Positions 1,158 through 11,057 of a stretch of 17,352 bases of DNA are shown in pieces. The notes under the pieces were generated by a model. The model was not told the DNA's origin and did no database searches. It was given only the letters and a program-made list of their open reading frames with translations. The position numbers and the translations under genes are program-made. Location of the stretch: positions 1 to 17,352 of the forward strand of contig DAIAVG010000010.1 in the NCBI GenBank assembly GCA_027445725.1, in the 5' to 3' direction. This stretch comes from Acidithiobacillus sp. GTDB taxonomy: Bacteria; Pseudomonadota; Gammaproteobacteria; Acidithiobacillales; Acidithiobacillaceae. Numbering within the stretch: the first letter of the stretch is position 1; each line of letters starts with the position of its first letter.

Positions 1158-2513
1158 TCATGCGCCAAGAATCCGTAGCAGGTTGCAGTAATCTTCATCC
1201 ATCTGCGTGTCTTCCTGACGCAGTTTATCGATCTGGCGGCAGGCATGGAGGACGGTGGTGTGGTCGCGTCCGCCGAAGGCCTCGCCGATTTCCGGCAGAC
1301 TGTGGTTGGTGAGTTCCTTGGTGAGGCACATGGCCATCTGCCGGGGACGGGCAATGTTGCGGCTGCGTCGTTTGGACTGCATATCGGAACCGCGAATGTG
1401 AAAATATTCGGCTACGACTTTCTGGATGTTGTCGAGGCTGACCATGCGTTTCTGTACGTCGATCAGGTCGCGCAGGGCCTCACGGGCGGTATCCAGGTTG
1501 TAAGGCTTGTGGGTGAAGTTGACATGGGCGACCACCCGACGCAGCGCGCCTTCCAGTTCGCGGACATGGGAGCGGATTTTCTCGGCGATGAAGAAGGCCA
1601 CTTCTTCGGGCAAATCAACGCCGCTTTCTTCCGCCTTGCAGAGGACAATGGCCATGCGCGTTTCGAGATCGTGGGGCTGGATGGCGACCGTCAGTCCCCA
1701 GCCGAAGCGCGATTGCAGGCGTTCTTCCAGGCGGTCTACTTCTTTGGGGTAGCGGTCACAGGTGATAATAATCTGCCGGCCGCCGTCAAAGAGGGCGTTG
1801 AAGGTGTGAAAAAACTCTTCCTGGGTACGGTCCTTGCCCGCAAAAAACTGGATGTCGTCAATGAGCAGGGCATCCAGCTTGCGGTAACGCTGCTTGAAGT
1901 CATTGATGGTGTTGTGTTGCAGGGAGCGCACCATGTCCATGATGAAGCCTTCGGAGCTGACATAAAGCACCTTGGCATCGGCGTTGCGTTGGAGGATGGC
2001 GTTTCCCACCGCTTGCATGAGATGGGTCTTGCCCAGTCCGACGCCGCCATAGATATACAGCGGATTGTAAGATTTCCCCGGATTTTCGGCGACCTGCCGG
2101 GCCGCCGCCACCGCGAGCTGATTGGATTTGCCTTCAACGTAGGACTTGAAGGAAAAGCCCGGGTTGAGCCGGTTGCCATTGCGCGGATCGGTGATCGGAG
2201 CAGTGGCTGGAGTAGCTGCTACCGGGGCTGGGGTCGTCCCTTCGTCGGTGCCGAGTTCCAGGCGAAGCATCATTCCCGGTGCAAGCTGGGCGAGCACCCC
2301 TTCCAGCAGATCCATCAGTCTTTCCCGCACCCATTCCTTGACGAAGGTATTGGGTGCGAACAGGCGCAGTTCGTTACCATGCAACTCGCCACGAAGGGGG
2401 CGCAGCCAGGTGTTGAACTGCTGGGCTGTGGTCTGTTCTTGCAACTGCACACACAGCGCCGCCCATAAGGCGTCTCCGTTGTGCAGCGCGGATGGCGCTG
2501 GATGACTGCTCAT
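1158..2513 (-). CDS. dnaA: Chromosomal replication initiator DnaA
   Basis: DnaA is the AAA+ ATPase that binds DnaA boxes and opens the origin. The 451-residue product shows the domain I motif QFNTWLRPL near residues 32-40, a proline/alanine-rich linker (about residues 90-115), Walker [11 protein letters not shown] (about 156-165), Walker B with the [11 protein letters not shown] motif, and the domain IV DNA-binding signature [15 protein letters not shown] near the C-terminus. I chose ATG at 2513 because domain I then starts at the usual distance. The frame stays open to ATG at 2570 (470 residues), but the extra 19 residues are not DnaA-like. Neither start has a strong ribosome site; only a weak AGG precedes 2513. 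Size and all motifs are normal. dnaN follows on the same strand. Confidence 0.96.
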
Positions 2514-3412: not shown

Positions 3413-3433
3413 CTCTAGATAGCCTAGCAACCA

Positions 3434-3504
3434 GGAGAAGCGGGAATGGGGCGGTTTGCTGCCGTCGCGCTATCCCCTCCGTCCTAGAAGACGGAGTCCC
3501 CGCG
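3434..3504 (+). ncRNA. Structured leader RNA of nrdD, copy 1 of a three-copy motif
   Basis: This is a predicted cis-regulatory RNA ending 7 bases before the nrdD ATG. It shares with copies at 8964-9038 and 10915-10985 the blocks GGAGA (3434-3438), GGGAA (3442-3446) and CGCTATCCC (3468-3476). Helices visible by eye: P1 3440-3445 with 3497-3503 (one bulge), P2 3450-3454 with 3462-3466 (7-base loop), P3 3477-3483 with 3490-3496 (7 perfect pairs, 6-base loop). This makes a closed three-way junction. There is no T-run after P3, so it is not a plain terminator. nrdD has no ribosome site of its own between the motif and ATG; the only nearby GGAG (3493-3496) lies inside P3, 15 bases before ATG, which suggests translational control. 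No known riboswitch class is recognised. Confidence 0.6.
3446..3487 (+). CDS. Possible leader peptide inside the nrdD RNA motif
   Basis: ATG at 3446 follows GGAG with an ideal 8-base spacing and opens a 13-codon frame (MGRFAAVALSPPS) ending with TAG at 3485-3487, in the P3 loop. The ubiV copy has the same ATG and spacing. The peptides are not clearly conserved, so this may be incidental to the RNA. Confidence 0.25.
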   Translation: MGRFAAVALSPPS

Positions 3505-3511
3505 TAAGCTA

Positions 3512-5545
3512 ATGAAAGAACCTTTGTCCGCCAGCCATTCGAGTAGGGCTATTTGGCCATTTGTAATTAAGCGAAACGGTACGAGGGCGCCTTTCGATCC
3601 AAATCGAATTTGCTCTGCCATCACGCGGGCGGGACACGCAGCTGGTGAATTTGATGACAGTGTCGCTGGGCGAATTACGGACGTGGTTCTGAACACGTTG
3701 CAGCCCCTCGTTATCGACCGTGACCCCACGATTGAACTGATTCAAGATCATGTCGAATTAACGTTGATGGATGAAGGCTTCTACCGTACTGCCCGTGCCT
3801 ATATCGCCTACCGTGAGCAGCATCAACGCTTGCGCAGGGACCGTCAGGCGGTGGTGGATGCCGTTAGCTCGGTAAATGAGTACCTGGATCGGGAAGATTG
3901 GCGAATCAACGCGAATGCCAATCAAGGTTATTCGTTGGGCGGTCTGATTCTGAACGTCGCGGGGAAAGTGATCGCCAATTACTGGTTGAGTCATGTCTAT
4001 CCGGATGAAATCGGCGCCGCTCACCGTGAGGCGGACATTCATATCCATGATCTCGATATGCTGGCAGGTTATTGTGCTGGGTGGTCTCTGCGAACCTTGC
4101 TGCAAGAGGGGTTTAACGGCGTACCAGGGAAGGTGGAAGCGGCACCTCCCCGCCACTTGTCCAGTGCGGTGGGGCAAATGGTAAACTTCCTGGGCACCTT
4201 GCAGAACGAATGGGCTGGCGCGCAGGCTTTTAGTTCCTTTGACACCTATCTGGCACCGTTTGTCCGCAAGGACGGGCTTTCCTATGACGAAGTACGTCAG
4301 AATATTCAGGAGTTCATTTACAACCTGAACGTGCCTTCCCGCTGGGGCAGCCAGACCCCTTTTACCAATGTAACGCTCGATTGGGTCTGCCCTGAAGATC
4401 TTCGGGAACAGGTTCCGGTCATCGGTGGAAAGGAGATGCCATTCCGCTATGGCGATCTGCAGGCGGAAATGGATTTGATCAACCTCGCCTATATCGAGGT
4501 GATGAGCGAAGGGGATGCCAAGGGCCGCGTCTTCACCTTCCCCATTCCAACCTACAACATAACCTCTGATTTTCCGTGGGATTCGGAAAACGCCGAAAGA
4601 CTGTTTGCTATGACGGCAAAGTACGGCCTGCCCTACTTTCAGAATTTCATTAATTCTGAACTCCAGCCCAACATGGTGCGCTCTATGTGTTGTCGGCTCC
4701 AACTCGACCTGCGCGAATTGCTCAAGCGCGGAAATGGGCTTTTCGGTTCAGCAGAGCAGACGGGCTCCATTGGTGTGGTGACCATCAACTGCGCCAGGCT
4801 GGGTTATCTCCATAAAAACGACCGCAATGAGTTATATCGTCAACTCGATAGTCTGCTGGTAATGGCAAAAAACAGTCTGGAGATCAAACGTAAGATCATC
4901 CAGCGCCACATGGACACGGGGTTGTTCCCCTACTCCAAACGTTATTTGGGCACGCTTCGCAATCATTTCTCCACCATTGGCATTAATGGGGTCAACGAAA
5001 TGATCCGCAACTTCACGGACGATAGGGAGGATATCACAACGCCCTTGGGTTACGAGTTCGCCTTAGAGTTTTTAGATTATATAAGGAATCGTATGGTCGC
5101 CTTTCAGGAGGAAACAGGCCACATGTACAATCTGGAGGCTACGCCCGCGGAGGGCACCACCTACCGTTTCGCCAAAGAAGATCGCAAGCGGTTTCCCGAT
5201 ATTTTGCAAGCGGGAACCCTGGACAAACCCTACTACACGAATTCTTCGCAACTGCCGGTTGGATTTACGGACGATCCATTTGAGGCATTGGAACGACAGG
5301 AGGCTTTGCAAGCCAAATACACGGGAGGCACCGTTCTTCATCTATATATGGGCGAGCGCCTCTCTAGCTCAGAAACCTGCAAACGCTTGGTGCGGCGCGC
5401 GCTGGAGCGATTCCGGCAGCCGTACATTACAGTTACCCCCACTTTTTCCATCTGTCCGGTGCATGGATATCTGGCTGGTGAGCATCCATTTTGTCCCGTC
5501 TGTGACCAAGAACGCATTGCAGAAAAGCGGCGGCGTTCTGCATAA
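3512..5545 (+). CDS. nrdD: Anaerobic (class III) ribonucleoside-triphosphate reductase, large part lacking the glycyl-radical segment
   Basis: This enzyme reduces ribonucleoside triphosphates to dNTPs without oxygen. The 677-residue product has an N-terminal ATP-cone (WPFVIKRNGTRAPFDPNRI, about residues 11-29 onward), the catalytic barrel, a MCCRLQLD segment with C393/C394 as candidate thiyl-radical cysteine, and GSIGVVTINCARLGY. At the C-terminus is the zinc site C648-x2-H651 and C661-x2-C664, after which the protein stops within 13 residues. The glycyl-radical domain that normally follows, with a GY motif, is missing. It is encoded by the next gene in another frame, 19 bases downstream. The start is fixed by an in-frame TAG at 3485-3487 with no alternative start codon before 3512. 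A structured leader RNA directly precedes it. Confidence 0.95.
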   Translation: MKEPLSASHSSRAIWPFVIKRNGTRAPFDPNRICSAITRAGHAAGEFDDSVAGRITDVVLNTLQPLVIDRDPTIELIQDHVELTLMDEGFYRTARAYIAYREQHQRLRRDRQAVVDAVSSVNEYLDREDWRINANANQGYSLGGLILNVAGKVIANYWLSHVYPDEIGAAHREADIHIHDLDMLAGYCAGWSLRTLLQEGFNGVPGKVEAAPPRHLSSAVGQMVNFLGTLQNEWAGAQAFSSFDTYLAPFVRKDGLSYDEVRQNIQEFIYNLNVPSRWGSQTPFTNVTLDWVCPEDLREQVPVIGGKEMPFRYGDLQAEMDLINLAYIEVMSEGDAKGRVFTFPIPTYNITSDFPWDSENAERLFAMTAKYGLPYFQNFINSELQPNMVRSMCCRLQLDLRELLKRGNGLFGSAEQTGSIGVVTINCARLGYLHKNDRNELYRQLDSLLVMAKNSLEIKRKIIQRHMDTGLFPYSKRYLGTLRNHFSTIGINGVNEMIRNFTDDREDITTPLGYEFALEFLDYIRNRMVAFQEETGHMYNLEATPAEGTTYRFAKEDRKRFPDILQAGTLDKPYYTNSSQLPVGFTDDPFEALERQEALQAKYTGGTVLHLYMGERLSSSETCKRLVRRALERFRQPYITVTPTFSICPVHGYLAGEHPFCPVCDQERIAEKRRRSA

Positions 5546-5564
5546 CACATTAAAGGAGAATATT

Positions 5565-5771
5565 ATGTGCCCTGAGATAGTCAATGAAAGCCCGATAGAA
5601 GTGGAGTTGAGTGATGACGAAAGACAACCCTGTGAGGTTTGGACAAGGGTTATGGGGTATCATCGCCCGACCTCATCGTTTAATATAGGTAAGCAAGGAG
5701 AGCATTTGGAACGTAAGCATTTCATCGAGACCAAGAGTTTCGATGGGGATCGCTCTCCATCGGATCATTAG
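5565..5771 (+). CDS. Stand-alone NrdD glycyl-radical segment
   Basis: The 68-residue product contains CEVWTRVMGYHRP (residues 23-35), then FNIGKQGEHLERKHF (39-53). This matches the C-terminal glycyl-radical segment of NrdD, with G31 as the expected radical glycine. It begins with ATG at 5565 after a good AAAGGAG (5552-5558), 19 bases past the nrdD stop, and lies in a different frame from nrdD. It is therefore a separate translated unit, not a readthrough tail. Its TAG is directly followed by the nrdG ATG. NrdG would have to form the radical on this small protein while docked on NrdD. I believe similarly short NrdD-family proteins are annotated in some other bacteria but cannot confirm it here. 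The alternative is a recent frameshift, which the ribosome site argues against. Confidence 0.85.
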   Translation: MCPEIVNESPIEVELSDDERQPCEVWTRVMGYHRPTSSFNIGKQGEHLERKHFIETKSFDGDRSPSDH

Positions 5772-6509
5772 ATGGGCGCCAACGTTCTCGATATGAGGGA
5801 TATTATATCTGAGAACGGATCAATTTTATTACCGACTTTTGCCGGTCTCTCCCAGTTTAGTGCGGTGGATTACCCAGGGCATTTGTGTGCTGTACTATAT
5901 ACCCAAGGTTGTCCGTGTCGCTGTCGTTACTGCCATAATCCAAGCCTACAGCAGGGGCAGGGACCGTCGGTTATGTCGTGGCCTAGCGTCATGGAGTGGT
6001 TGGTTACCCGCAAGGGGTTGCTGGATGCAGTAGCATTTTGTGGCGGGGAACCAACAGTCCATAAATCGTTGCTGTTGGCGATGAGGCAAGTAAGGGCATT
6101 GGGATTCAATGTCGCCCTGCACACGTCCGGACTATATCCACATAACTTTGCAAATATGCTCCCATTCTTGGATTGGGTTGGGTTTGATGTCAAGTCACCT
6201 TTTGCGCGTTATCCCGATGTCACCCGCGTACCAGGAAGCGGCGGCAAGGTAAGAGAATCTCTCGAACGGATGTTATCCAGTAAGGTTTCCTATGAGATCC
6301 GAACAACGGTACATAATACCATTTTAAATAGCGCAGATCTTGTTACGATGGCCAGCGAGTTGCAAATGCTTGGCGTATCCAGGTGGGTATTGCAACGCTT
6401 TAACAAGGCCGGATGTGCAGATTTGGAGTTGGTTGCTAGCCACACTCCAATAGATGGTGATGTGGTTGATCGGTTGCGCGTCTATGTACCAAATATCTTA
6501 GTTAGATAG
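5772..6509 (+). CDS. nrdG: Anaerobic ribonucleotide reductase activase (radical SAM)
   Basis: NrdG uses S-adenosylmethionine and a [4Fe-4S] cluster to generate the glycyl radical on NrdD. The 245-residue product has the radical SAM motif C47-x3-C51-x2-C54 (QGCPCRCRYCHNP) preceded by GLSQFSAVDYPGHL. This is typical of the longer NrdG2-type activases rather than the short E. coli NrdG. FCGGEPTVH (a GGE-type SAM contact) follows. ATG at 5772 abuts the stop of the small glycyl-radical gene, so translation is likely coupled; no clear ribosome site is seen. ATG at 5793 is an alternative start. The gene ends 26 bases from the convergent lipoate-ligase-like gene. Confidence 0.9.
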   Translation: MGANVLDMRDIISENGSILLPTFAGLSQFSAVDYPGHLCAVLYTQGCPCRCRYCHNPSLQQGQGPSVMSWPSVMEWLVTRKGLLDAVAFCGGEPTVHKSLLLAMRQVRALGFNVALHTSGLYPHNFANMLPFLDWVGFDVKSPFARYPDVTRVPGSGGKVRESLERMLSSKVSYEIRTTVHNTILNSADLVTMASELQMLGVSRWVLQRFNKAGCADLELVASHTPIDGDVVDRLRVYVPNILVR

Positions 6510-6535
6510 CGATGCTGGTTCTATCGTCTGTACGC

Positions 6536-8080
6536 CTATTGCATGGGTTTTCGTCCCGCAAGCCTTATAACCTTTTCCGCTACACCAAGGTCTATAGATG
6601 ACTCGGCGCTAAACTCTCCTGAATATGCCGACTGTTCTTGCATGAGATCGTAACAGTTGGCGCCAGCGATATCCAGTAACAATGCGGGCATATTTGCTGA
6701 GCGAAATGCATATTCTCGCTTGATGTAAAAATTATTACAGCACATTCCTAAGTAGGATTTCGTGCCACGTTTCTTGAGTGCTTTTAGTGCAATCTCTAAA
6801 TGTTCAAAATTCCTTACTGTGGTGACATTTAATCCCTGCTGTCTGGCTACCTTGTATACCTCACCAACATCGCATTTCCCGCACTGGGAGCAGCCGTCTT
6901 TATGCCGCCACTTGCACCATGCGGGTTTGGCGCAGTATGGAACGAGTAAGGTGTCGGCCTTTGCTACGATATCAAAGGCATCCATTGTTCCGTCGGGGTC
7001 ATGGATCATGAAGGAACTTGCTGACGATGGCGCTATGGAAAGTTTGACGGCTATTCCATGTTGTTCGAAAAGGCGCCGGAGCAACACCATAATATGGTGG
7101 GGAGTAAATCCATACAATTCCCATTGATTCTCATAAAATAAATTGTCCATTCGTCGCGTGATTTCAGTTTCTGATGCACCACGCAATACCGATTCAATTT
7201 TACGAAACAGGTTGTGCGGTCGAATGTACACATTACCATTCAGGTGTAAGGATGATATCCGGAGATCCGTATCGAATTGTATGCGCCCGTGAAGCACACC
7301 GCCCGATGTTGTAATAAAACCGCTATAGGTGCTCTCATGAGCATTTTCTGGCAGGTTGTGGTGATCACATACGTATGTTTGTGATGTATTATTAATCCAT
7401 GGAATCTGCATAATACTAGGCAAGTTACATGATTGAGCTATAGCTTGTGCTAAAGACGCCTTGAGTTGTAATAAGCCTGCATCGCTCAGGTTCGGCAGAG
7501 TGGTGAAGCGATGCGTGGCCGTATGTATGCCTGCGGGTGTTAATTTTTCCTTTGGAACGCGTAGCGCGTGAAGCATCGTATTTATGTCCAACGACCTGAA
7601 TAGAGTGCCATTTGCGATTAGAACATTATCTAATACGCCTATATATACGCTCCCCAGCTTTTGTCCATTCGCGTAGATGTCATTTGGGTTATTGAAATAA
7701 ATGTTTTCATGGCCACTATTAGATAGACCATCGCAAACGGCCATGCAAATGATATCGAGCCATTGTTCGATATTTAAATGTTGCACCGGAAGCGTTAAGC
7801 TCCAACTGATTTGCTTGGGATATAAATACGACGTGCCGCCGCCAGTTAAGCGGCGAATGATCGGTATGGACTTGGCCTGACAGTATGCTGACCGTACAGC
7901 AAAATCCTTGTCTTCATAGGCACCTAATGCTACGGTTCGTGTGCTTTCGTAAAATCGAAGCAATGGCACATGATCTGTACGTGTAACGATAATTTGCTGG
8001 GAATCCAGAACGAGGTTATCGGCGCCGTCCCGAAGCCCGCTATCCCCCCAGGTTAGCTTGTTCATAAATCTTTTTCCCAT
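6536..8080 (-). CDS. Lipoate-protein ligase-like / DUF116 fusion protein
   Basis: This 514-residue protein has two parts. Residues about 15-300 look like the LplA/BPL ligase fold: RRLTGGGTSY (76-85), NDIYANGQKLGS (133-144, with K141 as the expected adenylate lysine) and a lipoate-ligase accessory-like segment (about 255-300). Residues about 375-500 resemble DUF116 with many cysteines (C383, C389, C397, C400, C403, C447, C448, C476) and GANCYDLMQEQ, suggesting metal or Fe-S binding. The ATG at 8080 shares one base with the ubiV stop (TGATG), so the two are in one operon; ATG at 8065 is another possible start. The stretch looks richer in A+T than dnaA. A role in anaerobic ubiquinone synthesis or in lipoylation is only inferred from position. 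Confidence 0.75.
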   Translation of the reverse strand: MGKRFMNKLTWGDSGLRDGADNLVLDSQQIIVTRTDHVPLLRFYESTRTVALGAYEDKDFAVRSAYCQAKSIPIIRRLTGGGTSYLYPKQISWSLTLPVQHLNIEQWLDIICMAVCDGLSNSGHENIYFNNPNDIYANGQKLGSVYIGVLDNVLIANGTLFRSLDINTMLHALRVPKEKLTPAGIHTATHRFTTLPNLSDAGLLQLKASLAQAIAQSCNLPSIMQIPWINNTSQTYVCDHHNLPENAHESTYSGFITTSGGVLHGRIQFDTDLRISSLHLNGNVYIRPHNLFRKIESVLRGASETEITRRMDNLFYENQWELYGFTPHHIMVLLRRLFEQHGIAVKLSIAPSSASSFMIHDPDGTMDAFDIVAKADTLLVPYCAKPAWCKWRHKDGCSQCGKCDVGEVYKVARQQGLNVTTVRNFEHLEIALKALKKRGTKSYLGMCCNNFYIKREYAFRSANMPALLLDIAGANCYDLMQEQSAYSGEFSAESSIDLGVAEKVIRLAGRKPMQ

Positions 8081-8958
8081 CAGTCGTTATGCGCATGCAT
8101 GAACGTCATGCCCGGTAAGCCATGCCAATAGCCGTTACAAACAGGTGAGCGCAGCATCCCCTCGGAAATAGATGTCCCATCTACAGCTGCATGAAATGTT
8201 TTCACAATGGTGTCTGTATCTTTTAGCTGTGGAGATATACGCACTATATCTATGCCCATATCCAACATTGCGCCAGTCTCATATAACAGATTGCATGGAA
8301 TGCCTGATTGAAGCTGGATGCCATTCATGGTGAATAGGCGTTCATGCTCTTGGGTAAAAAGTGGCCGCCCTTCCGGATCTCGTATGCAGCGTTGTTCACA
8401 CTCGTCCTTGCCGACATTATCCGCACGGGCGGTGAAGCAGCGCGCCGAAAACGATAGCGGTAAGTATCCATATGCGAACACTTCGGTTTCCATGGCCTCC
8501 GGCCGCGTGTTTTGTAACGTGCCGATGGTCGTGGCGGGTAGCTCCACCGGAGGAACCCATCGAGTTGCCCCAAGCTCGGCTAATAGCGATAATGTTTCGC
8601 TATTATAACAGTTTATATGCGGCCCAGCGACAAATGGAACCCGCCCCGCCAGTAAATGAACCGCAGACATGTCATTGGCTTCGACAATGTAATTGGCATT
8701 TGCGCAAATCTTCTCTAATTGTAGTAGATCCGAGTTGGCTTCTAGGAGTGCTAACGTGGAAAGCACGACCTCCTTACCAGCGTCGGTTAGTCGCGCAGCA
8801 ATGTCGAGCCAGTCGGCTCTACGTAGGGCGCGTCGCTTTGCGCACACGGTTTCTCCTAAATAAACAATGTCTACGGGCCAGTGTTCTGCGGACCGATAAA
8901 ATTGCTCTATGTCTTCCTTTGACCAGTAGTAGTGAATTGGGCCTAATGAGATTTTCAT
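8080..8958 (-). CDS. ubiV: Oxygen-independent ubiquinone hydroxylation protein UbiV (U32 family)
   Basis: UbiV works with UbiU as a [4Fe-4S] heterodimer that hydroxylates the ubiquinone ring without oxygen. The 292-residue product has cysteines C39, C174, C187 and C191. C39 is at the same position as in E. coli UbiV, and the 13- and 4-residue spacings match its C180, C193 and C197 cluster ligands. The start MKISLGPIHYYW is typical. The ATG at 8958 has no ribosome site of its own; it follows the structured RNA at 8964-9038 by five bases. The next gene overlaps its stop by one base. UbiV is separated from ubiU by 198 bases and so probably has its own promoter. Confidence 0.93.
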   Translation of the reverse strand: MKISLGPIHYYWSKEDIEQFYRSAEHWPVDIVYLGETVCAKRRALRRADWLDIAARLTDAGKEVVLSTLALLEANSDLLQLEKICANANYIVEANDMSAVHLLAGRVPFVAGPHINCYNSETLSLLAELGATRWVPPVELPATTIGTLQNTRPEAMETEVFAYGYLPLSFSARCFTARADNVGKDECEQRCIRDPEGRPLFTQEHERLFTMNGIQLQSGIPCNLLYETGAMLDMGIDIVRISPQLKDTDTIVKTFHAAVDGTSISEGMLRSPVCNGYWHGLPGMTFMHAHND

Positions 8959-9026
8959 CTATTTGCTCGGGAAGCCCTGGCCTTTATACCGGGGAGGGAT
9001 AGCGTGGCCTGTGTTGCAAGCCCCAT
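8955..9026 (-). CDS. Possible leader peptide overlapping ubiV
   Basis: On the minus strand, ATG at 9026 follows GGAG (9038-9035) by 8 bases. It opens a 23-codon frame starting MGLATQATLSLPG whose TGA (8957-8955) overlaps the ubiV ATG as ATGA. Such a junction would couple translation. The peptide is not clearly conserved in the ubiT or nrdD leaders. Confidence 0.3.
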   Translation of the reverse strand: MGLATQATLSLPGIKARASRANR

Positions 9027-9038
9027 TCCCGCATCTCC
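8964..9038 (-). ncRNA. Structured leader RNA of ubiV, copy 2 of a three-copy motif
   Basis: Read on the minus strand this copy has GGAGA (9038-9034), GGGAA (9030-9026) and CGCTATCCC (9004-8996). P1 pairs 9031-9026 with 8973-8968 (six pairs). P2 is GGCTTG with CAGGCC (9022-9017 with 9011-9006, five-base loop). P3 pairs 8994-8989 with 8980-8975 with one C-A mismatch. P2 differs in sequence from the nrdD and ubiT copies yet still pairs, which is covariation support. The motif ends about five bases before the ubiV ATG. It closely resembles the nrdD copy at the 5' side: both read GCGGGAATGGGGC. Confidence 0.6.
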
Positions 9039-9156
9039 TTTTGACAATGCTATCTTGTTGAATGAATGTCTATAGCCATCGGATCGCTGAATCAGTATGC
9101 AAAAGTCATAGGCTATCGCTAAATCACAGCATGGGCCGTCTGTATAATACCGGGAG

Positions 9157-10167
9157 TTAATGCCAAGGTCTGTGATATGCCCCGAGAGTATGGGACTGTC
9201 CCTCAGAAAGGCGATCCAGGGCGGAGGTCCATTGGGTTTTTACGGAATATCGCTCAGGATTCGAAGCGCAAAGATCTATGGCCTCGCGCAAGACGCGCGC
9301 GACAGAGGCGACATAGGCCGGACTTCGCTGGCGCCCCTCCACCTTGATGGCGGCTACACCATGCCGGAATAAATCTGGCAGGATATCCAAGACATTTAGG
9401 CTGGTAGGTTCCTCAATGGCGTAATACGGTTGCGCGTTGGTATAGTAGCGGCCCTTGCACAAGGTAGGGTACCCGGCCGCTTCATTAAGGCCATGGCGAT
9501 CAATCAATACGCCATTGAGGCGAGACTGGCGGCCCAGGGGGGTCTCCTCCCATCGTACCGACTCGGCTGGTGAGCAAACCCCGCTGGCATTGGGGGACCG
9601 GCCCGTAATGTAGGATGACAAAGCGCAACGACCTTCTACCATGACGCATAGACTTCCATAACCGAATACTTCGATTTCTACTGGGCTGTTGGTTATGGTA
9701 TGCCAAAGCTGTTCTAAGGAGAGAACTCTTGGGAGAACGGCTCTTTGAATGCCAAATCGCTGGTGGTAGAACGCCAGGGCCTGATGGGTGGTGGCAGACG
9801 CCTGCACGGAAAGATGTAAACGCAGATTGGGGTGGTGACTTGCAGCATAACGCAGCAATCCAGGGTCCGCCATGATCACGGCATCTATCCCAAGCACCGC
9901 AGCGCGATCCACTGCGGTGGTCCAGGCAGACCAGTTGTGTGCCTGTGGATAGGTGTTGATGGCGAGAAGGACTTTTTTTCCAGCGCGATGCGCATACTCG
10001 ACACCGCGTGCGGTATCATCTGGACCAAAATTAAGCCCAGGAAAATTGCGGGCGTTAGTGTCGTCGCGGAAGCCCATATATACAGCATCTGCGCCATTAT
10101 CAATGGCGGCTTTCAAGGCCGGCAATCCGCCTGCGGGGCAAACCAACTCCGGTTTACGGTCATTCAT
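9157..10167 (-). CDS. ubiU: Oxygen-independent ubiquinone hydroxylation protein UbiU (U32 family)
   Basis: UbiU is the partner of UbiV in oxygen-independent ring hydroxylation. The 336-residue product starts MNDRKPELVCPAGGLPALKA, the U32 peptidase-family N-terminus. It carries C174, C181, C198 and C237, whose spacings (7, 17, 39) equal those of the E. coli UbiU cluster ligands C169, C176, C193 and C232. ATG at 10167 is preceded by AAAGGA; the frame extends to 10209, but the added residues are not UbiU-like. The ATG shares its A with the TAA of a 60-residue ORF (TAATG), suggesting coupled translation. It follows ubiT on the same strand. Confidence 0.94.
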   Translation of the reverse strand: MNDRKPELVCPAGGLPALKAAIDNGADAVYMGFRDDTNARNFPGLNFGPDDTARGVEYAHRAGKKVLLAINTYPQAHNWSAWTTAVDRAAVLGIDAVIMADPGLLRYAASHHPNLRLHLSVQASATTHQALAFYHQRFGIQRAVLPRVLSLEQLWHTITNSPVEIEVFGYGSLCVMVEGRCALSSYITGRSPNASGVCSPAESVRWEETPLGRQSRLNGVLIDRHGLNEAAGYPTLCKGRYYTNAQPYYAIEEPTSLNVLDILPDLFRHGVAAIKVEGRQRSPAYVASVARVLREAIDLCASNPERYSVKTQWTSALDRLSEGQSHTLGAYHRPWH

Positions 10168-10349
10168 TATGATGTCCTTTCTATTAAACCGTTCCATTTT
10201 CCAGAACACCAGTTCGGTGCGAGCAACAAGTGTACCGGAGCGGTGCCGGTTAGTCTGTGGAATATAATATCGCAGGGCGTTATTTCTAAAACATTACAGC
10301 CCGTTTCTATGTACTCATTTATAGTCAATGGTGAGGCCGTCAAATCCAT
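10167..10349 (-). CDS. 60-residue ORF resembling the C-terminus of YhcC-type radical SAM proteins
   Basis: Between ubiT and ubiU a 60-codon frame starts at ATG 10349 and ends with a TAA that overlaps the ubiU ATG. The product includes ITPCDIIFHRLTGTAP and LLLAPNWCSGKWNGLIER. From memory this resembles the C-terminal tail of the TIGR01212/YhcC radical SAM family, which has a pattern like IHRLTGDAPxxLLLAPxWCxxK. No radical SAM core is encoded: an in-frame TAA lies right before the ATG. There is no clear ribosome site. It is either a remnant of a lost gene or a retained small protein coupled to ubiU. Function is unknown. Confidence 0.4.
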   Translation of the reverse strand: MDLTASPLTINEYIETGCNVLEITPCDIIFHRLTGTAPVHLLLAPNWCSGKWNGLIERTS

Positions 10350-10368
10350 TTAAGGTATATACAGGCAC

Positions 10369-10905
10369 TCAGGGCTGAAGAGCGCGATCAAGTACGTCAT
10401 GCAAGCGCCTGTCGGCGTGCGTTTTGCGGATAGCACGATCTATGGTTTGCCTTATTCGGGGACCCAATGGGGCTGGTAGACCGTTGATCGGGGCGAGCCA
10501 ATCCAAGTCTATCGAATCCAAAATATTCTTAAGATGCAGTCCGATGGATGTTTCTCCCTCCAACACCAGGCGGCGGGCGAAGAAAAGGGTGTCCGGATCT
10601 TCGAGGCGTAGTGCGAGTCGGCAAAAATCCTTGGCGGTCCCTGCAATGCGCAAGTCGACCGGTCCAGCGAGGGCCGGAGCAAGCCTTCCCCGCCTTATTG
10701 TAAAGCGGAATGATTTTCCGAGGTCGGACACCTCGACCACAATGCGCCGCCCCTCTATCTGGTAGAGATCTGGTTGATGCTTCGCCAGAACCCAATTGGC
10801 CGTGCCCACGAAGAGGGCGGTGAGCACCGGATCCATCAAAATTGTTGTTGTGGCGATAAATGGACGTGCTAGTGCGCGCCCTTGATGCATGAATTTTGTC
10901 GTCAT
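10369..10905 (-). CDS. ubiT: Ubiquinone biosynthesis accessory factor UbiT (SCP2 domain)
   Basis: UbiT is the SCP2-type lipid-binding accessory protein needed for anaerobic ubiquinone synthesis, replacing UbiJ. The 178-residue product (E. coli UbiT is about 174) has the conserved EDPDTLFFARRLVLEGETSI segment followed by GLHLKNILDSID, the hallmark of the UbiT/UbiJ SCP2 fold. I chose ATG at 10905, which directly follows the structured RNA. The frame is open to a TTG at 10956, but that 17-residue extension is made of the RNA motif itself. There is no ribosome site between the motif and ATG. The gene heads a run ubiT - small ORF - ubiU, all on one strand. Confidence 0.92.
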   Translation of the reverse strand: MTTKFMHQGRALARPFIATTTILMDPVLTALFVGTANWVLAKHQPDLYQIEGRRIVVEVSDLGKSFRFTIRRGRLAPALAGPVDLRIAGTAKDFCRLALRLEDPDTLFFARRLVLEGETSIGLHLKNILDSIDLDWLAPINGLPAPLGPRIRQTIDRAIRKTHADRRLHDVLDRALQP

Positions 10906-10979
10906 TGGTTTTTGCGGGGGCCCCGGCATTTCTGTCGGGGAGGAATAGCGTGGCAAGCGTAAGGTTGCCTTTTCCCCAT
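10902..10979 (-). CDS. Possible leader peptide overlapping ubiT
   Basis: On the minus strand, ATG at 10979 opens a 25-codon frame starting MGKRQPYACHAIPPR. Its TGA (10904-10902) overlaps the ubiT ATG as ATGA, the same junction as at ubiV. The GGAG before it is only two bases away, which is too close for good initiation, so support is weaker than for the ubiV one. Confidence 0.2.
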   Translation of the reverse strand: MGKRQPYACHAIPPRQKCRGPRKNQ

Positions 10980-10985
10980 CTCTCC
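10915..10985 (-). ncRNA. Structured leader RNA of ubiT, copy 3 of a three-copy motif
   Basis: Read on the minus strand this copy has GGAGA (10985-10981), GGGAA (10976-10972) and CGCTATTCC (10950-10942). P1 is the weakest of the three copies (GGGG 10977-10974 with CCCC near 10920-10916). P2 is GGCAA with TTGCC (10969-10965 with 10956-10952, 8-base loop). P3 is CCCCG with CGGGG (10940-10936 with 10925-10921), with inner CA/TG pairs and a GAAA loop. Helix positions match the nrdD and ubiV copies while the paired bases differ. The motif ends about nine bases before the ubiT ATG. Confidence 0.6.
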
Positions 10986-11028
10986 TTTTCGTCAGTTGTC
11001 GCGTGCAATGGAATGCTCAACCGCCTTG

Positions 11029-11057
11029 TTGACATTCCGTTGAAAAAGCATTATTCA
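11029..11057 (+). promoter_or_regulatory. Possible promoter for the flavin oxidoreductase gene
   Basis: A perfect -35 TTGACA (11029-11034) is followed after 17 bases by TATTCA (11052-11057), a poor -10. It lies about 80 bases before the start at 11135 and would be divergent from ubiT. Only the -35 is convincing. Confidence 0.3.

Follow-up and report, generated by a model that had tools for sequence, protein, structure and literature searches.

In a 17,352-nucleotide (nt) stretch of DNA from Acidithiobacillus sp. (contig DAIAVG010000010.1; hereafter the window), the genes nrdD, ubiV and ubiT are each preceded by a copy of one structured element, which is almost certainly the right (3') end of an IscB/HEARO mobile element (ISC, IS200/IS605 superfamily). 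IscB elements are the presumed ancestors of Cas9. Comparison of the window copies with those in other genomes indicates that such an end likely forms a split ribosome-binding site, in which a strong Shine-Dalgarno (SD) sequence stands far from the start codon and would be brought close to it by folding of the intervening RNA. On this comparative evidence, we consider it probable that IscB/HEARO right ends serve as fold-dependent replacement ribosome-binding sites and have been kept as 5' leaders.

Identity of the element

The three window copies share the blocks GGAGA, GGGAA or variants of it, GGC and CGCTAT(C/T)CC, together with the helices P1, P2 and P3. Their GGAGA blocks lie at 3434 (+), 9038 (-) and 10985 (-), and the copies end 7 nt before nrdD (start at 3512), 5 nt before ubiV (8958) and 9 nt before ubiT (10905), in agreement with the first-pass annotation of this DNA, which had described these segments and blocks as ending 5-9 nt before the start codons. 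All three genes begin with ATGA.

The 3' end of iscB was found upstream of many copies, with its frame traversing the element and stopping at a TGA that overlaps or abuts the ATG. The upstream protein was assigned to IscB by Pfam (RRXRR, 9.8e-72, and HNH), its closest solved structures are also IscB, and complete iscB genes (RRXRR, RuvC and HNH) were found in relatives of the window copies. Furthermore, 12 of the 40 loci searched (9/20 and 3/20) contain the HEARO omega-RNA (RF02033) at the gathering score; in some loci, the upstream DNA is too short for it to be seen. In the copies of two genomes, G424 and G432, the omega-RNA lies about 90 nt from the right end, leaving no room for iscB. The left tip reads GTCAAC or GTCAAT in all 12 loci of one set, and GTCAAC in 13 of 22 HEARO loci, the others having GTCAAG, GTCAGG, GTCAGT or GTTG; in the window, GTCAAC occurs only upstream of the ubiT copy, where it is present in 9/9 ubiT orthologues displayed.

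The window itself gave no match to RF02033 in the Rfam search, and a tblastn search with IscB found no complete iscB there, the best parts being a C-terminal remnant and a 21-residue match. The remnant is the tail at the ubiV copy (9116-8961, E 1.9e-12; 26/47 residues identical, E 1e-15), and the short match (E 0.22) lies at the nrdD copy, where the IscB frame contains stops; the remainder of the window had no IscB match better than E 1. Since both omega-RNA and complete iscB are missing from the window, its copies are end relics rather than complete elements. Two other identities were rejected: a new family unrelated to anything, given the iscB and HEARO sequences seen upstream in relatives, and plain IS200/tnpB end repeats, most of which have neither a distal AGGAG nor a start codon behind them.

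A distal Shine-Dalgarno sequence

The GGAGA of the window copies is a strong SD sequence 70-odd nt from the start codon, a feature that the first-pass annotation missed. Its statement that no normal ribosome site lies between motif and start was borne out, as no SD-like tetramer was found at positions -16 to -4 of nrdD, ubiV or ubiT. The arrangement was examined in 106 matches from 99 chosen loci (alignment A4), one of them a tnpB-type end. This set leaves aside 12 loci of the G236 family (L199, L186, L200, L214, L187, L188, L215, L216, L189, L217, L218 and L201), the near-identical G424 copies L146 and L220, duplicates (e.g. L063), most IS-type ends, and partial or weaker matches. A scored start codon follows 98 of the 106 copies, in 97 cases ATG and in 86 ATGA, some of these starts being off by a few bases (e.g. 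L061 and L069); seven of the other eight copies end in ATGA without a scored open reading frame (ORF), and the eighth is the tnpB-type end. AGGAG stands at the 5' edge of the element in 96/106 copies, and the median distance from the end of the SD-like motif to the start is 76 nt. Within -16 to -4, an SD-like tetramer occurs before just one of the 98 scored starts.

The distances on either side of P1 are short, mostly 1-3 nt from AGGAG to P1 and 6-10 nt from its 3' strand (P1') to the start codon. Their sum amounts to 8-12 nt in 77 of 90 copies (range 2-16). Thus, once P1 is formed, AGGAG and AUG would be separated by an ordinary distance of about 8-12 nt.

A separate DNA-pattern scan of named genomes, in which the pattern required AGGAG, returned 45 loci with 38 distinct elements. 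The hosts were Acidithiobacillus, Acidiferrobacter, Yanghanlia, Paraburkholderia, Trinickia, Alcaligenaceae, Oceanimonas, Zobellella, Modicisalibacter, Methylacidiphilum and Sulfobacillus, along with other records. A start was scored at 40/45 loci and lay immediately behind the element in 38 (those of L341 and L349 were assigned beyond it), with a local SD sequence in 0/40. A crude search for IscB motifs was positive in 14/37, and GATAGC was present upstream in 34/45 loci.

Covarying helices and a pseudoknot

The folding energies of the three window copies, taken singly, did not differ significantly from those of shuffled sequences (z of -1.20, +0.55 and -0.46), and the case for structure therefore rests on comparison. 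As the first-pass annotation had proposed, a covariance model was built from the three copies (R1) and searched in genomes; it matched 20 of 57, G001 included. A model of 45 copies (R3) had matches in 19/29 genomes of the family, in 13/369 of the class, and in 17/39, 1/2 and 17/18 genomes of three other families; the counts for both models include IS200- and tnpB-type ends with P2 and P3 only, and some genomes (e.g. G181 and G263) have nothing else.

Among the 103 distinct rows of the 106 matches, P1-P3 are paired in 93.9% of cells, and changes on both sides were seen at 18/18 helix pairs (17/18 on the 45-row alignment). The covariation score was 0.440, against 0.173 for shuffled alignments and at most 0.095 for slid partners; the alignment behind it was fitted to the model structure, which favours that structure, and the slid controls give the size of the margin. 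The earlier proposal that P1 closes P2 and P3, with pairing kept while sequence changes, is thus strongly supported. RNAalifold on a MAFFT alignment (A2) gave 3 pairs only, which we think reflects misalignment of the hairpins by MAFFT, and the model built from it (R2) was not used. The Rfam search of the window copies yielded no match of their own at E values up to 5; the first-pass annotation, too, had not recognised them as a riboswitch class known to it.

An additional helix, also missed by the first-pass annotation, is formed by GATAGC, 5' of GGAGA, and GCTATC. As it crosses P1, it makes the structure a pseudoknot. Of the 103 evaluable copies, 77 have a perfect complement to their own hexamer in the 49 nt upstream, versus 1.34 expected from shuffled upstream sequence, and the commonest pairs are GATAGC/GCTATC (63), GAGAGC/GCTCTC (7), GGTAGC/GCTACC (4) and GATGGC/GCCATC (2). 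P2 is dispensable, since it is missing from the leaders of a 130-amino-acid, secreted-looking protein.

Insertion at start codons and proposed mechanism

Uninserted relatives reveal what the element displaces. At mdh of G432, AAAGGAGTATTAGC is followed by GTCAACTAC and on through the element (tip GTCAAC) to ATGA; in the uninserted G431, GAGGAGCATTAGC stands directly before ATGA, and an SD sequence lies just 5' of the ATG in 9/9 other relatives displayed, G431 among them. Likewise, at a glnK-like P-II gene, G434 has CGGGAGATCTGCCGCT, then GTCAAC and the element, then ATGA, and the uninserted G441 has AGGGAGATCCGCCGCC directly before ATGA; GGAG, GAGG or similar precedes the ATG in 5/5 other genes displayed, including G441. 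Since these relatives carry an SD sequence beside the ATG, the element pushes the native one away. The 2009 description of HEARO is said to have noted integration at ATGA/GTGA, in which case the preference for start codons was already known. The ATGA at insertion sites (86 of 98 scored starts, plus the empty sites) fits NTGA, the target-adjacent motif reported for the related IsrB (PMC9581776).

We propose the following course of events. The IscB/HEARO element inserts directly 5' of NTGA, mostly the ATGA of a start codon, and parts the gene from its native SD sequence, as the empty and occupied sites of mdh and glnK show. Its right end brings in a replacement AGGAG about 76 nt upstream of the start codon; the DNA between the two presumably cannot be short because it contains P2 and P3, end hairpins that also occur at IS200/tnpB-type ends and are probably needed for transposition. 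In the mRNA, P1, P2, P3 and the GATAGC:GCTATC pseudoknot may fold this spacer away, so that the ribosome could initiate at the AUG. Where iscB is present, ribosomes ending IscB at the TGA overlapping the ATG may also restart there. What remains at nrdD, ubiV and ubiT is the right end, retained as the 5' leader of the gene, and the other parts of the element are gone.

Retention after loss of the element

The leaders persist in orthologous genes. Within the genus, ubiT occurs in 9 of 17 genomes and its leader in 8 of the 9. In the ubiT orthologue set, 121/144 cells pair and five pairs show double changes; the corresponding values are 71/71 cells and three pairs for a cytochrome, 32/33 cells and three pairs for an amidohydrolase, and 71/72 cells and one pair for the 130-amino-acid protein. 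In the nrdD, ubiV, hemC and DUF1015 sets, pairing is kept in 90-97% of cells.

A different explanation is that ribosomes ending an IscB or relic frame at the TGA overlapping the ATG simply restart, with the structure only slowing or placing them. ATGA overlaps are a known coupling arrangement (PMC6728339), and in 36 of 105 full copies, that of the window ubiV included, an IscB-type frame continues uninterrupted to a stop located at the start codon. Such a frame is absent from the other 69, however, among them the window nrdD and ubiT copies; of these 69, AGGAG is kept in 63 and at least four of the five P1 pairs in 67, compared with 33 and 36 of the 36 copies that have the frame. Neither coding nor coupling can therefore account for the conservation by itself. 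Moreover, in three of four ubiV relatives (G003, G009 and G015), the sequence beside AGGAG has one base fewer than in the window copy. Altogether, we regard termination-reinitiation as an unlikely explanation of the element.

Two further observations concern the distribution of copies. Yanghanlia caeni carries seven with identical element sequence (L341, L345, L347, L349, L350, L352 and L358). Wherever a start was scored, the genes behind them differ, and most of the copies lie at contig edges; they are a young family and a good experimental system. A contig labelled Micrarchaeota (L342) agrees with the window in its ubiV leader and in the beginning of the gene, and is probably a misbinned Acidithiobacillus contig.

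Other types of right end

Samples anchored on HEARO or iscB, and hence not selected by the right-end model, place the distal arrangement in a wider range of ends. HEARO matched in 14 of 369 genomes of the class, in seven of them above the cut-off. The right end was located in 16 of 18 HEARO-anchored loci. Of these 16, two leave the locus and eight abut an ORF of at least 60 amino acids, namely 5/5 in G261 and 3/3 in G358, one of these eight starts lying a few bases further on. Inspection by eye of eight further iscB 3' ends from the Acidithiobacillus family, outside the model matches, showed a distal AGGAG or GGAGG and a hairpin in five. Of 185 distinct model matches, 138 are followed by a scored start; a distal SD sequence only is present in 111 of these, a proximal one only in 8, both in 4 and neither in 15, the last class including IS-type ends and mis-assigned starts. 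A crude pattern search found a P1 partner in 76 of the 111 distal-only matches and in 0/8 of the proximal-only ones, one of which (G438:C113) is a case of a start placed beyond the real end of the element. Many IscB right ends, though not all, thus carry a ribosome-binding site, of which the distal folded form is one type.

Right ends of the G228 family (e.g. L136, L225 and L226) have GGAG or GGAA beside the ATG, with no distal AGGAG or P1; here the ribosome-binding site has switched sides with respect to the hairpins. By eye, the tnpB-type elements L049, L051:4370-4426, L052-L055, L057 and L058 display P2-GCTATCC-P3 upstream of tnpB on the opposite strand, and in IS200-type elements of G296, G181 and G263 it follows right after the apparent tnpA stop.

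Several results weigh against the split ribosome-binding site. The HEARO-anchored right ends are of other types, those of G358 and G261 having GGAG or GGGGA near the start, and 0/6 HEARO-anchored copies of G146 lie at gene starts. Of the eight iscB ends inspected by eye, one has a proximal GGGAGG, two have no clear SD sequence, and only four run directly into an ORF of at least 60 amino acids. Because AGGAG and P1 are part of the models themselves, the counts given above under-represent copies that lack them. No double changes were found in the orthologue sets of nrdD (3 rows), ubiV (4), hemC (2) and DUF1015 (2), which are small or close. The pseudoknot has been lost from the window ubiT copy, and in G015 the element was lost together with the N-terminus, or first codons, of ubiT itself. 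A C-rich stretch 5' of P3 might likewise pair with AGGAG. Finally, the multicopy elements of G296 have a CATAGC/P1-like arrangement with no start codon downstream, from which it follows that P1 and the pseudoknot may also serve transposition, and the P2-GCTATCC-P3-CGCGCA module is common to IS200- and tnpB-type ends, so that transposition probably accounts for some of the conservation.

The last two points lend themselves to a reading in which the structure is conserved only as DNA, as a transposase substrate, the effect on the gene being incidental and the host gene being translated through coupling or SD-independent initiation: the module occurs at IS200/tnpB ends away from start codons, and the G296 copies have a P1-like helix without one. 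Against this reading stand the persistence of AGGAG and P1 in copies without an iscB frame and in orthologue sets, and the removal of the native SD sequence by insertion when almost no scored copy has a local one. The proximal-SD copies, none of which has a P1 partner by the crude search described, speak against it as well. We accordingly think it improbable that the structure matters as DNA alone, and return to the split ribosome-binding site as the preferred explanation.

Downstream genes

The genes behind the element share no theme. Twelve were named by family models, namely hemC, a P-II regulator, pyrF, dapA, ksgA, galE, murJ, cca, mdh, a SoxA/TsdA cytochrome, an amidohydrolase and DUF1015, and the remainder were read by eye. 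Two names were dropped: thiG for a gene of G261, which the NCBIfam search did not support, and CHRD for the 130-amino-acid protein, which Pfam did not support.

The first-pass annotation had interpreted the three copies as a riboswitch-like translational switch sensing a signal of anaerobic growth. Its conserved structured RNA, tied to gene starts and most likely acting on translation, is supported; the sensing of an anaerobic signal is not, because the downstream genes are unrelated and the element is the right end of a mobile element, with HEARO upstream in 12/40 loci and iscB reading into it. Sequence comparison gave no sign of ligand sensing. A mobile repeat scattered with no link to gene starts had been named there as a refutation, and half of this applies: the element is indeed mobile, but its copies are tied to start codons. 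A switch of an anaerobic regulon that senses a signal, whether as a riboswitch or otherwise and perhaps via the pseudoknot, was rejected on gene content and mobile origin and seems to us very improbable: a pseudoknotted junction with covarying helices does lie immediately 5' of start codons, and the three window genes plausibly serve anaerobic growth, but the targets are unrelated across genomes and follow insertion rather than function, at least six near-identical copies precede different genes in G424 and in Yanghanlia, and no known family was matched in Rfam.

Features of the window

Coordinates of the three copies, their parts and the adjoining genes are collected in Table 1.

Table 1. Element copies, their parts and adjoining genes in the window.
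Feature	Position	Strand	Basis or remark
nrdD copy, whole	3418..3511	+	GATAGC through the base preceding the nrdD ATG; sequence and covariance-model matches
nrdD copy, GATAGC, pseudoknot 5' strand	3418..3423	+	partner 3469-3474
nrdD copy, distal SD AGGAG	3433..3437	+	sequence
nrdD copy, P1-closed domain	3440..3503	+	positions counted on sequence; helices from folding and family alignments
nrdD copy, P1	GCGGGA 3440-3445 with CCCCGC 3498-3503	+	within domain 3440..3503
nrdD copy, P2	3450-3454/3462-3466	+	inside P1 domain
nrdD copy, P3	3477-3483/3490-3496	+	inside P1 domain
nrdD copy, GCTATC, pseudoknot 3' strand	3469..3474	+	sequence
nrdD, anaerobic ribonucleotide reductase, catalytic part	3512..5545	+	677 amino acids, starts ATGA; PF13597, PF03477
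ubiV copy, whole	8959..9054	-	sequence, model match, pseudoknot scan
ubiV copy, parts	GATAGC 9054-9049; AGGAG 9039-9035; P1 from 9032; GCTATC 9003-8998; then P3, P1', spacer	-	
iscB 3'-end remnant	8955..9116	-	frame open to TGA overlapping ubiV ATG (ATGA)
ubiV-like gene	8080..8958	-	Peptidase_U32; name ubiV from first-pass annotation
ubiT copy: AGGAG (10986-10982), P1-P2-P3-P1', spacer	10906..10990	-	pseudoknot strand lost
GTCAAC upstream of ubiT copy	11028..11033	-	identical to the element's usual left tip; possible left-end remnant
ubiT-like gene	10369..10905	-	SCP2 domain; name ubiT from first-pass annotation

NrdD is split in the window into the catalytic ORF and a separate 64-residue stretch (5577-5771, +), which matches the last positions (530-562) of PF13597. 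In Bacterium BMS3Bbin13 (L084 and L321), a small ORF resembling this piece has its own copy of the element. A 514-amino-acid protein beside the ubiquinone genes (6536-8080, -) combines a lipoate ligase-like domain (PF21948) with DUF116 (PF01976). At 1971-2051 (+), a sub-threshold Rfam match to AsdA, the dnaA antisense RNA (43.8 of 52 bits), sits opposite an ORF resembling dnaA (1158-2570, -).

Significance and comparison with known systems

The split ribosome-binding site would explain how RNA-guided IscB elements can occupy the starts of housekeeping genes (mdh, P-II, pyrF, dapA and ksgA) without silencing them. It may further be, although we hold this larger picture only tentatively, that IscB/HEARO elements seek out start codons and persist in housekeeping genes through a transplantable pseudoknotted ribosome-binding site, and that hosts have repeatedly kept the ends of dead elements, genes such as nrdD, ubiV, ubiT and hemC now depending on initiation sites of transposon origin. 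As the SD sequence would work only in folded RNA, each such gene may have gained a fold-dependent control point, for example a temperature-, magnesium- or protein-dependent one. The case also provides examples of transposon ends retained by hosts as 5' leaders, and serves as a warning that covarying 5'-untranslated structures before unrelated genes can be transposon ends rather than riboswitches. In the literature searched, which did not extend to the founding HEARO/ISC papers, we found neither a ribosome-binding site described for the right end of IscB/HEARO elements nor the combination of an RNA-guided element inserting at start codons with a folding-dependent replacement ribosome-binding site that host genes retain.

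With HEARO/IscB (ISC, RF02033), the present elements share the omega-RNA, iscB and insertion 5' of ATGA; omega-RNA and/or iscB are still present in elements that hold relatives of the window copies. RF02033, however, describes the omega-RNA, which is located 5' in the element, whereas the structure described here lies at the 3' end and has no Rfam match, and the window copies stand without omega-RNA or complete iscB, that of ubiV keeping an IscB tail. The ends of IS200/IS605 and tnpB elements have the same P2-GCTATCC-P3-CGCGCA module; those displayed (e.g. those ending in GGGTCA, GGTTGA or GGTAA) differ in having no start codon behind them, and most have neither the distal AGGAG nor the P1 partner.

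The closest functional parallel is the split ribosome-binding site of T4 genes 25 and 38, in which RNA structure cuts the distance between SD sequence and AUG from 27 to 11 nt and from 22 to 5 nt (PMC3014915). In both systems the SD sequence is too distant and a structure between it and the AUG restores, or in our case would restore, a working distance. The IscB-end leaders have a strong SD sequence beyond normal reach and none near the AUG (AGGAG in 96/106, local in 1/98), with a spacing-restoring structure between them supported by covariation and geometry. The T4 cases are backed by mutation and probing (PMC3014915), whereas the case for the IscB ends comes from comparative sequence. The two also differ in scale and mobility: the IscB-end leaders span about 76 nt, with up to three helices and a pseudoknot, and are mobile, standing before many unrelated genes. 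If the proposal is correct, they are natural ribosome-binding sites whose two parts are joined by folding over a distance of some 70 nt, more than in either T4 gene.

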